Shown here: positions 25,967-28,785 of the stretch, in pieces | How the letters are laid out: every line of letters starts with the position of its first letter | Position numbering within the stretch: position 1 is the stretch's first letter | Origin: Rhodospirillales bacterium | GTDB taxonomy: Bacteria > Pseudomonadota > Alphaproteobacteria > Rhodospirillales > Casp-alpha2 | Assembly: GCA_017640505.1 (NCBI GenBank) | Contig: JAEPQO010000004.1 | Coordinates: 124,001 to 188,000, forward strand | Direction: 5' to 3' | Length of the DNA stretch: 64,000 nucleotides | Program-made: the position numbers and the translations under genes | The notes under the pieces: generated by a model | What the model was told of the DNA's origin: nothing | Database searches by the model: none | Seen by the model: the letters and a program-made list of their open reading frames with translations, nothing else

Positions 25967-26632
25967 CTATGCCACCGCTTCCCGCAAAGCCTGCGCTGCG
26001 GCCCATGGCGTCAGCGCCAGCGAACCGAGCAGCACGCCGCCCAGCAGCATCAGATTGGCCTTGGCGCCGGTCCCGTAAAGCACCGCATCGCCCGATCCGA
26101 CGGCAAAGATGAGCACCGGAATCAGGAGCGGCAGCACCAACAGCGACAGCAACACGCCGCCCCGCCTGGCACCCAGAACCAGTGCCGCACCAACGCTGCC
26201 CAAGAGACTCAGCACAGGCGTCCCCAGCAGCAGCGTCATCAACAGCACCGGCCAGATTTCGGTCGGTACGTTCATCATCACGAACAGCAACGGCGCGGTG
26301 ACGATCAGCGGCAATCCGGTCGTCAGCCAGTGCGCCAGCACCTTGACCAGCACCACGAATTCCAGCGCGACCGGCGACAACACGAGCAATTCCAGCGAAC
26401 CGTCCTCGTAATCTCCCATGAACATGCGATCCATTGACAGCATTGCCGCCAGAAGCGCGGCGACCCAGATCACGCCGGGACCGATGCGCGCCAGCATGTT
26501 CGGTTCCGGCCCGACGCCGAACGGAAACAGCACAACGGCAATCACGAAAAACGCGATGACCATGACGCTGTCCGCGCTCTGACGCATGGCAAGTCGCATC
26601 TCGCGCCGGAAAAGGACGGAAACAGCGTTCAT
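25967..26632 (-). CDS. ccmB: Haem exporter permease CcmB
   Basis: A 221-aa polytopic membrane subunit of the CcmABC(D) complex, which releases holo-CcmE using ATP. Family features are the N-terminal LFRREMRLAMRQ, a central MDRMFMGDYEDGSLELLVLS and LPLLIPVLIFAVG. Overlaps ccmA by four bases (ATGA). Confidence 0.94.
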   Translation of the reverse strand: MNAVSVLFRREMRLAMRQSADSVMVIAFFVIAVVLFPFGVGPEPNMLARIGPGVIWVAALLAAMLSMDRMFMGDYEDGSLELLVLSPVALEFVVLVKVLAHWLTTGLPLIVTAPLLFVMMNVPTEIWPVLLMTLLLGTPVLSLLGSVGAALVLGARRGGVLLSLLVLPLLIPVLIFAVGSGDAVLYGTGAKANLMLLGGVLLGSLALTPWAAAQALREAVA

Positions 26633-27252
26633 GACGCAGCTCCCAGCGTCAGCAGACCGGATGACGCAAGACCGAGGTCGGTATGTGTCGAAATCACCGC
26701 CATGCCGCCCGATGCGAGATGCCGGTCAATAAGGCCGCGCAGCGCATCTGACGTATCCTGATCCAACGCTGTCGTCGGCTCGTCGAGCAGCCACAACGGC
26801 GCACCCGATGTCAGCATTCTCGTCAGCGTGACACGCCGCCGCTGTCCGGCGGAAAGGTACCGCGCGGGAAGGTCCGCGAGATGGCCAATACCGAGCGCCG
26901 TAAGTGCCTCCGTGGCACGCATACCGCCGGCGCCCGACAGTTCGGACCAGAACGAAACGTTTTCGGTGACGCTGAGCGCCGGCTTCACCGCATCCGCATG
27001 ACCGATATAGGCAATGCGCCGGTTATGCTCATGCGGGTCGTCGGCGATATCCTCGCCATCCCATGTGATGGCCCCGGCAACGGGGCGCATCAGGCCGGCC
27101 ATCAGGCGCAAAAGCGTCGACTTGCCGCTACCGTTGGCGCCGCGAAGCACCAATGCCGCACCACTTTCAAGCGAAAACGTAGCGCCCGACAGAACCTGCC
27201 GTTCACCCCGAACGCAATCGATATTGTGGCCGCTGAAAACCGCCATTCTCAC
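26629..27252 (-). CDS. ccmA: Haem exporter ATPase CcmA
   Basis: A 207-aa ABC ATPase, first gene of the ccm operon. Walker A GANGSGKSTLL, signature YLSAGQRRRV and Walker B LWLLDEPTTALD are intact, with the switch histidine in ISTHTD. Short length is normal for CcmA. A second ATG two codons later is an alternative start. The promoter must lie in 27253-27325, between ccmA and the terminator of the upstream operon. Confidence 0.93.
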   Translation of the reverse strand: MRMAVFSGHNIDCVRGERQVLSGATFSLESGAALVLRGANGSGKSTLLRLMAGLMRPVAGAITWDGEDIADDPHEHNRRIAYIGHADAVKPALSVTENVSFWSELSGAGGMRATEALTALGIGHLADLPARYLSAGQRRRVTLTRMLTSGAPLWLLDEPTTALDQDTSDALRGLIDRHLASGGMAVISTHTDLGLASSGLLTLGAAS

Positions 27253-27325
27253 CCTCGAACGATGCCGGGAAAACCTAGCTTATGGACCCCGTCAAGGAAA
27301 GCCGAAGGGACATGACCCGACCGAC

Positions 27326-27371
27326 AAAATAAAACGGCCGGATCGCTCCCTGGGGGAAATAGATCCGGCCG
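27326..27371 (-). terminator. Rho-independent terminator of the paaK/liv operon
   Basis: A perfect 10-bp stem CGGCCGGATC/GATCCGGCCG (27335-27344 with 27362-27371, 17-base loop) is followed on the minus strand by TTTTATTTT. It ends transcription coming from the PaaK-like gene, or from the candidate small RNA, before ccmA. Confidence 0.8.
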
Positions 27372-27443
27372 ATTAGTTTCGGCGTCTGGCGCCGATAGGG
27401 GACCAGAGAGGGGGGTCTCTGGTGTATAGACGAGGAGGTCTAT
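27326..27443 (-). ncRNA. Candidate small RNA with C-rich hairpin loops
   Basis: Between the PaaK-like gene and ccmA the minus strand can form, in order, ATAGAC-CUCCUC-GUCUAU (27443-27426), CCAGAGA-CCCCCC-UCUCUGG (27422-27403), CGGCG-CCAGA-CGCCG (27394-27380) and the terminator hairpin, whose loop again holds CCCCC. Exposed CUCCUC loops pair with Shine-Dalgarno sequences and are known in alphaproteobacterial small RNAs. It could be processed from the operon 3-prime end or have its own promoter; I saw no convincing promoter. The plus strand of the same region would show AGGAGG before an ATG at 27448, a competing reading. Confidence 0.45.
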
Positions 27444-27546
27444 GATCATGAAAATAGGCGCTGAATGTGGCGCGATTGTGGCACCGAACATTACAAATTT
27501 GTTAGGTTTTGACGTGCCGCTCAAGCCGTTGATTCACGGCCCTGAA

Positions 27547-28785
27547 TCAGACTTCGCGGGCGTCCTCGATGACCTTGCCGTCATTTGGCAGGCTGCCCTC
27601 GGCGACACATTCCGCGTGCCCCTTGAGCTTGCAGACGTTCTGCACCGTCTCGTTAATACTATCTATAAGTGCATTTCCGCCTTCCGCAACCTCGCATTTG
27701 ACGGTCATGACGTCGGCCTTGCCGTCATGCGTGACGACGACGCGGGCACGCTTGATTTCCGGATGGCGGCGGACGATTTCCGCGACCTGTGCCGGATGCA
27801 CGAACATGCCCTTGACCTTGGTCGTCTGATCGGCCCGCCCCATCCAGCCGGCTAGGCGCATGTTGGTCCGGCCGCACGGACTGACACCGGAAAGCAGTTT
27901 TGACAGGTCGCCCGTCGCAAACCGGATCAGCGGATAGTCGTCGCGCAACACGGTGACGACCACTTCGCCGACTTCACCCTCGGCAACAGGATCGCCGGTG
28001 CCCGGACGGACGATCTCGACAATCAGCCTTTCATCGACGATCAGGCCCTCGCGAGCTTCGGACTCGTAACCGATATTGCCGATATCGGCTGTCGCATAGA
28101 CCTGGCCGCAATGTATCCCATGATCCTCGATTTCCTGGCGCAGCGCGGGCGGCAGTCCTTCTCCTGCGACACAGGCTTTTTTCAGGCTTGATGTATCACG
28201 CCCCATTTCATCCGCTTTTTCGAGGATGACCTTGAGGAAGCTCGGCGTGCCGGTATAGCCCGACGGCTTGATGTCGTGAATCGCCTGAACCTGGAGTTCC
28301 GTGTTGCCCACACCTGCCGGAAACACGGCACACCCAAGTGCACGGGCCCCGGCTTCCAGCATCACGCCCGCAGGCGTGAAGTGATAAGCGAAAGTATTGT
28401 GCATCACGTCTCCGGCGCGGAAGCCGCTGGCGTAAAGCGCACGGGCCGTGCCCCACCAGTCCTTGCCGTGGCCTTCCGGATCGTAGGTCGGCCCCGGCGA
28501 CTGGAAAATCCGGGACAGTTGACCGACGGCAAGCGTCGTCATGCCACCGAACGGGTCGCCCTCGCTCTGAATATTGACCAGTTCCGATTTCCGCGTCACG
28601 GGCAACGCCGCCAGCGCCGCCCGGTCTGTAACCGACGCCGGATCGACATCGGCCAGAAGCTTGGCGAAATAAGGCGCGTTGTCGCGGGCGTTCCGGATAT
28701 GCGCCGGCAACCGCTCGAACAGCGCCGTTTCGCGTTCGGCCGGATCCCGAACCTCGAGATCGTCGTAATACCGGTTGTCAGCCAT
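27547..28785 (-). CDS. PaaK-like AMP-dependent CoA ligase, altered P-loop
   Basis: A 412-aa member of the phenylacetate-CoA ligase branch. Supporting segments are SGYTGTPSFLK, RFATGDLSKLL, GRADQTTKVKGMFVHPAQV and a C-terminal ACT-like tail. The adenylation P-loop (SSGTTGxP in PaaK) is replaced by SPGPTYDPEG at residues 96-105, so ATP binding is unusual or lost. Sits two bases after livF as the last gene of the liv operon, suggesting it activates, or senses, an imported aromatic or other carboxylate. Followed by a hairpin-rich 3-prime region and a terminator. Confidence 0.8.
   Translation of the reverse strand: MADNRYYDDLEVRDPAERETALFERLPAHIRNARDNAPYFAKLLADVDPASVTDRAALAALPVTRKSELVNIQSEGDPFGGMTTLAVGQLSRIFQSPGPTYDPEGHGKDWWGTARALYASGFRAGDVMHNTFAYHFTPAGVMLEAGARALGCAVFPAGVGNTELQVQAIHDIKPSGYTGTPSFLKVILEKADEMGRDTSSLKKACVAGEGLPPALRQEIEDHGIHCGQVYATADIGNIGYESEAREGLIVDERLIVEIVRPGTGDPVAEGEVGEVVVTVLRDDYPLIRFATGDLSKLLSGVSPCGRTNMRLAGWMGRADQTTKVKGMFVHPAQVAEIVRRHPEIKRARVVVTHDGKADVMTVKCEVAEGGNALIDSINETVQNVCKLKGHAECVAEGSLPNDGKVIEDAREV

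Follow-up and report, generated by a model that had tools for sequence, protein, structure and literature searches.

The minus strand of positions 27326–27443 in the window, the 64,000-nucleotide stretch of Rhodospirillales DNA analysed in the present study, is a conserved RNA gene with a predicted product of about 118 nt. Its structure is conserved, a terminator is present and no open reading frame is kept on the opposite strand, as looked for in a free-standing small RNA gene; a conserved promoter-like block precedes it and the same promoter box is found at chvI. We consider it probable that the gene is autonomous and activated by ChvG-ChvI, and that its product acts in trans through C-rich loops on G-rich ribosome-binding sites, working like ChvR of Caulobacter. 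According to this proposal, the ChvG-ChvI envelope two-component system would activate the gene via an 11-bp direct-repeat box placed where the -35 element would be, and transcription would halt at the intrinsic terminator. The CUCCUC loop, the CCCCCC loop and a CCCC linker would then pair with the G-rich ribosome-binding regions of mRNAs, probably from envelope genes, and block their translation.

Folding gave three hairpins and a terminator (Table 1) with a minimum free energy of -52.1 kcal/mol, against a mean of -29.6 kcal/mol (sd 3.7) for 200 dinucleotide shuffles, none of which was as good. Sequence and fold confirm the three hairpins with C-rich loops and the terminator holding CCCCC that had been described in the original prediction, as well as their position between a PaaK-like gene and ccmA, all three lying on the minus strand. 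Both ends of the RNA are predicted, the 5' end at about 27443–27447 and the 3' end inside the U-tract. The terminator comprises a 10-bp GC-rich stem with CCCCC within its loop, followed by UUUUAUUUU; its U-tail is broken by an A, its inner loop is long, and it was not listed by a simple terminator scan of positions 27200–27700. Membership of an Rfam family was ruled out, with 0 matches to Rfam 15 at the gathering cut-off in the whole 64-kb window or in 19 homologue loci, and a lax search of the RNA region returned nothing close (best sub-threshold match FsrA, 14.5 bits vs 80). No tRNA or tmRNA genes are present in the window (positions 1–64000).

Table 1 Features of the RNA locus and its flanking genes, numbered from the first nucleotide of the window
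Feature	Position	Strand	Basis
Promoter box GCCACAATCGCGCCACATTC with a pair of 11-bp half-sites (putatively bound by ChvI)	27463–27482	minus	23.8 bits, best in window; next 8.8
-10-like element CTATTT	27452–27457	minus	by eye from aligned upstream sequences
Small RNA gene	27326–27443	minus	fold z -6.13; covariance model match 27327–27443 at 111.9 bits; covariation
Hairpin 1, AUAGAC-CUCCUC-GUCUAU, loop CUCCUC	27426–27443	minus	fold, covariation
Hairpin 2, ACCAGAGA-CCCCCC-UCUCUGGU, loop CCCCCC	27402–27423	minus	fold, covariation; stem sequence nearly invariant
Linker CCCCUA, single-stranded	27396–27401	minus	fold
Hairpin 3, UCGGCG-CCAGA-CGCCGA, loop not conserved	27379–27395	minus	fold, covariation
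Intrinsic terminator, stem-loop 27371–27335 and U-tract 27334–27326	27326–27371	minus	fold, covariation
ccmA (haem exporter ATPase), the gene usually found downstream	26629–27252	minus	TIGR01189, 225 bits vs cut-off 131.6
PaaK-like AMP-binding gene, upstream neighbour	27547–28785	minus	PF00501 and PF14535 over cut-off

A covariance model (R1) was built from 27 of 30 fetched loci, and 57 homologues (56 distinct rows) were aligned to it, an alignment that leans towards the model. In these rows 94.9% of cells were paired and 27 of the 30 base pairs changed on both sides, namely 6/6 in helix 1, 5/8 in helix 2, 6/6 in helix 3 and 10/10 in helix 4 (the terminator), and the covariation score of 0.412 dropped to ≤0.080 when the partners were slid. 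The covariance-model search and this check indicate that the originally predicted stems are kept in relatives with compensating changes. A control alignment made with MAFFT without structure (24 distinct rows) had 11/30 pairs changing on both sides and scored 0.201, against 0.122 for shuffles; helix 1 was without any such change, helix 3 was paired in just 77.8% of cells and the pair-type count was equalled by 35 of 500 shuffles. Covariation in the 56 homologues supports a structure beyond chance, as does, more weakly, the structure-free alignment. Runs of C were present in most of the R1-fitted rows, with CC in loop 1 in 54/56, CCCC in loop 2 in 52/56 and CCC in the linker in 53/56; CCC occurred in the terminator loop in 27/56. 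Judging from these rows, the kept feature of the loops is their C-rich character, not one exact word, and hairpin 2 has a stem with hardly any variation. Two loci (L073 and L075) have the loop of hairpin 3 swapped for a far longer insert, of 47 and 36 nt respectively.

BLASTN searches with a 161-base region as query matched 52 of 100 relatives at E≤0.01. Of 317 genomes from the order, R1 matched 151 at E≤0.01, many of them weakly, and 68 genomes from 13 families reached at least 40 bits; order-level matches below about 35 bits were mostly not counted as members, and three loci (L087, L095 and L096) were rejected as matches that look false. Of the 48 genomes in the family to which the window belongs, 43 matched, 41 of these at ≥54 bits, and 14 of the 43 hold further matches, those listed being weak (the second in the source genome scores 28 bits). 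A class-wide search of 385 genomes, run with stricter filters that lose weak matches, returned four genomes at E≤1e-4 and no credible homologue outside the order: one was the source genome and three matched at 30–34 bits, of which two were by eye unlike the family and one (L257) had neither the box nor the CCAGAGA stem. Scanning named genomes with a pattern yielded 32 stretches, all titled metagenome-assembled genomes, 31 of them Rhodospirillales, Rhodospirillaceae, Proteobacteria or Alphaproteobacteria by name. The remaining one, named Rhodanobacteraceae (L243; CAJXGK010000043.1), has the RNA, the box and ccmA, and is possibly a misnamed bin, a mixed bin or a transfer. RNA-like loci missed by the covariance model lie before ccm genes, read as such by eye, in two further genomes (L187 in G073 and L192 in G051), and are probably divergent or expanded copies. 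One assembly (G295) carries the same RNA and a near-identical acnA on two contigs (L077 and L098), possibly a strain duplication in the bin.

The promoter box, scored as agreement with at least 12 of the 20 consensus positions in the 70 nt preceding the RNA, was found in 65 of the 71 loci matched by the covariance model, mostly ending 18–24 nt ahead of the RNA start; the six loci without it are L073, L087, L090, L092, L095 and L096. A sigma-70 consensus scan of positions 27200–27700 gave no promoter match. An exact search with a 17-base pattern of the box hit 19 of the 48 genomes in the family, a single time each and always at the RNA; the control gave no match. Allowing one mismatch, a related pattern had 39 matches in 38 of 100 genomes, comprising 25 at the modelled RNA, two at the RNA-like loci L187 and L192, and 12 elsewhere in mixed settings, one of which lies in the source genome inside a MutY-like reading frame. 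In family f2 (L165, L166 and L193) the same box and -10-like element precede a glycine-zipper lipoprotein gene in both genomes seen. A box CATAATTTCGCCACATT in family f18 (L186 and L194) has an inverted CCACAAAATATGG-like block after it, and the region lacks both the RNA and any clear target gene.

The source genome has 13 OmpR-family regulator matches, and the box was looked for at these with a matrix built from 52 distinct RNA-promoter boxes only. For the 260-nt region ending about at the start of each gene, the best score was that of a chvI candidate (11.5 bits), and 11 others scored ≤4.7 bits; L153 was left out of the scoring because its start could not be placed. A whole-locus scan gave scores of 12.5 and 12.2 for the regulator L162, outside its upstream region. 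Pfam, NCBIfam and PDB gave no chvI name, and the identity of the candidate rests partly on its sequence. Downstream of the candidate come a gene for a kinase that has Stimulus_sens_1 and Sensor_TM1 domains and then one for HPr kinase; a PEPCK-like gene flanks the candidate at its opposite end. We also read the candidate as chvI because the order of kinase and HPr kinase is that of the chvIG-hprK operon in Caulobacter (PMC6237742).

A protein search at E≤1e-80 recovered chvI from 53 of 61 relatives, and the box lies upstream of the gene in 28 of the 30 loci fetched. Among the 26 loci located automatically, 24 had the box at p<0.05 (200 mononucleotide shuffles), with scores of up to 19.6, and two failed (0.2 in genus g7 and -5.1 in family f9); three further chvI loci in g7 score just 7.8–8.2. 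The remaining four loci, scanned up to 1.5 kb and without shuffles, score 14.2–19.1 just upstream of the gene. In a background of 2212 overlapping 260-base segments from 44 other loci, 1.3% reached 8 bits and the maximum was 13.6, which is exceeded by the 12 of 26 chvI loci that reach 14 bits. The source-genome chvI box lies below this maximum, as do most scores in its own genus, and the association of box and chvI appears to rest on the whole set of loci, which are related and do not represent independent tests. ChvI binds the promoter of the chvI operon in Caulobacter (PMC9731502). Two ChvI motifs are quoted in the same source, N-GCC-N8-GCC for S. meliloti and TTGC-N3-GCAA for Caulobacter (PMC9731502); the window box (GCC-ACAATCGC-GCC) fits the former and is unlike the latter. 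Binding of ChvI to the RNA promoter, and activation from it, are proposed.

A candidate target in the source genome is mlaC (PF05494; L282, G000:C8:26104-26122, minus strand), in which 14 nt perfectly complementary to hairpin 1, AUAGACGAGGAGGU, lie over the ribosome-binding site. The predicted duplex between RNA bases 1–46, taken as open, and this leader has an energy of -31.9 kcal/mol, below all 46 genes of the window (lowest -25.3 kcal/mol). The mlaC of G003 gave -27.1 kcal/mol; for that of G001, 8 of the 46 window genes were lower, and for the other candidates tested 5–24 were lower. Across the mlaC leaders read (27 of 30 fetched, with starts picked automatically, a few of which look wrong), the complement measured 14 nt in the source genome, 10 contiguous nt in G001 and ≤6 nt in 25. 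The complement is not kept beyond the closest species, and mlaC was rejected as a conserved target; the leader comparison suggests it as a lead for the source species only. A 9-nt complement, ACGAGGAGG, occurs at start sites in the genus in mlaC, in mlaA (Pfam) and in other proteins that look exported or membrane-bound by eye, and also in an aminotransferase-like protein, an ABC-ATPase-like protein and several spurious-looking frames, and we claim no enrichment. A PycTM-like membrane-protein gene (L111/L112/L115; G000:C5:523281-523892, and orthologues), identified by a weak match of 20.7 bits vs a cut-off of 27.2, in three close species combines the RNA-promoter box with 8–9 nt at the gene start that are complementary to loop 1. 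Of its 13 orthologues, seven were located by script and six were not; in the four more distant of these seven, the start picked is probably an internal ATG. TonB receptors, the kind of target in the ChvR-chvT pair, were rejected: the source genome has two, and their leaders show by eye just the short complements GAGGAG and GAGGGG.

The surroundings of the gene bear on whether it is transcribed independently. On the upstream side many loci have either the PaaK-like gene or a divergently oriented acnA (NCBIfam AcnA), and loci with acnA in place of the PaaK-like gene still carry the RNA. The suggestion in the original prediction that the uptake operon releases the RNA at its 3' end is unlikely, because the conserved box and -10-like element directly precede the RNA. 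On the other side, ccmA lies on the same strand with its first aligned residue 36–202 nt past the RNA in 51 of the 71 loci, and within 2.4 kb downstream in 30 of the 32 loci from named records, as would be expected if the RNA formed the 5' leader of the ccm operon and acted as an attenuator or RNA sensor, its terminator setting read-through into ccmA. However, ccmA is displaced by about 390–1390 nt in 7/71 loci and is outside the DNA examined in 13/71; these 13 include the three probably false matches named above, L012, where the contig runs out, and two loci (L014 and L020) for which longer records place ccmA 2.3 and 1.7 kb away, respectively. In seven loci (L024, L026, L058, L062, L066, L076 and L091) an open reading frame on the opposite strand, picked by length and composition only, adjoins the RNA on the ccmA side, and inspection by eye revealed no conserved antiterminator pairing. 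A cis-acting leader that is always directly upstream of ccmA was rejected on the 51/71 count and the interposed frames, and we regard a pure ccm leader as unlikely because other genes, some facing the RNA, intervene elsewhere. The arrangement suggests that the RNA does not need ccmA right behind it and that the location is nonetheless old.

Alternatively, the small RNA may be as described and the box may belong to another OmpR-family regulator, such as CenR or PhoB, that also controls chvI. The box resembles the layout of the Pho box, and the half-sites of some genera have the sequence TCA-N8-TCA, which is the CenR motif (TGA-N8-TGA) in reverse. Against this, chvI is alone in passing 5 bits among the 12 OmpR-family upstream regions scored in the source genome, and 28 of 31 Rhodobacter CenR sites lie upstream of the -35 element and are co-directional with transcription, whereas the RNA box has the opposite orientation; we find such a regulator quite unlikely. 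The repeated short C-rich loops on stable stems, and the lack of a conserved mRNA target among the candidates above, would also suit loops that bind a protein, as in protein-sequestering RNAs, and not mRNAs. No candidate protein accompanies that explanation, which we consider very unlikely. The original prediction had named a plus-strand role as its main alternative. In that case the ATG at 27442, closely preceded by AGGAGG, would open a small protein. This fails and is hardly credible: the frame that follows is not kept, its length in five genomes from the genus being 137, 43, 43, 29 and 19 codons, and the ATG itself is complementary to the start of the conserved RNA. An autonomous, ChvI-activated, trans-acting RNA remains our preferred explanation.

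Several described RNAs resemble this one in part. The 6C RNA of actinobacteria has hairpins with runs of C in their loops. It shares with the ccmA-linked RNA C-run loops on hairpins, but belongs to another phylum, and its gathering score in Rfam is not reached here. The rhizobial anti-Shine-Dalgarno RNAs SmelA075 and SmelA099 carry CCUCCUCCC in each hairpin loop (PMC3927594), and the alphaR8 family (SisA-D) has a single-stranded UUUCCUCCCU motif (PMC12559287). Like these, the present RNA has C-rich segments complementary to ribosome-binding sites; unlike them, it has CUCCUC and CCCCCC loops and no Rfam match. ChvR of Caulobacter crescentus (CCNA_R0100) is ChvI-controlled and Hfq-independent, with three predicted hairpins and a terminator, and is described as pairing with chvT via two stem-loops, one site being at -20 to -10 (PMC6237742). 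The two share a small structured form with hairpins and a terminator, control by ChvI (putative in the present RNA) and stem-loops as pairing sites (predicted here), the ChvR site lying near the start codon. By description they are set apart: ChvR reportedly occurs in C. crescentus only and lies upstream of recF/gyrB (PMC6237742), whereas the ccmA-linked RNA is spread over an order and has C-rich loops. The proposed assignment to anti-Shine-Dalgarno small RNAs can be retained in part, the exposed C-rich loops and the covarying stems kept in relatives agreeing with it; the rhizobial loop word is absent, and membership of the SmelA075/SmelA099 group was rejected.

ChvGI is an alphaproteobacterial envelope-stress system. 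Our literature search, which covered titles and the starts of abstracts and few subscription papers, returned no small RNA at ccmA in this order and no characterised ChvI-controlled RNA besides ChvR. Another Caulobacter locus, CCNA_R0088, bears a locus number of the RNA-gene type. ChvI ChIP in Caulobacter also peaks at its promoter, in a passage that does not describe the locus further (PMC9731502). A bolder reading, which we regard as doubtful, is that an order-wide ChvGI-activated C-loop RNA silences envelope genes (including Mla lipid-asymmetry genes in some species), that the RNA arm is separate in two alphaproteobacterial orders, and that read-through into ccmA may couple envelope stress to cytochrome c maturation. 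For RNA annotation, the locus adds a family with strong covariation. Based on the genomic comparisons above, the RNA of this order may be a widespread regulator of the cell envelope that appears to be switched on by ChvI. If so, the retention of such a ChvI-linked RNA in many families outside the order of Caulobacter would suggest that an RNA arm belongs generally to the ChvGI response, and the promoter of this RNA would provide a marker for ChvI activity.
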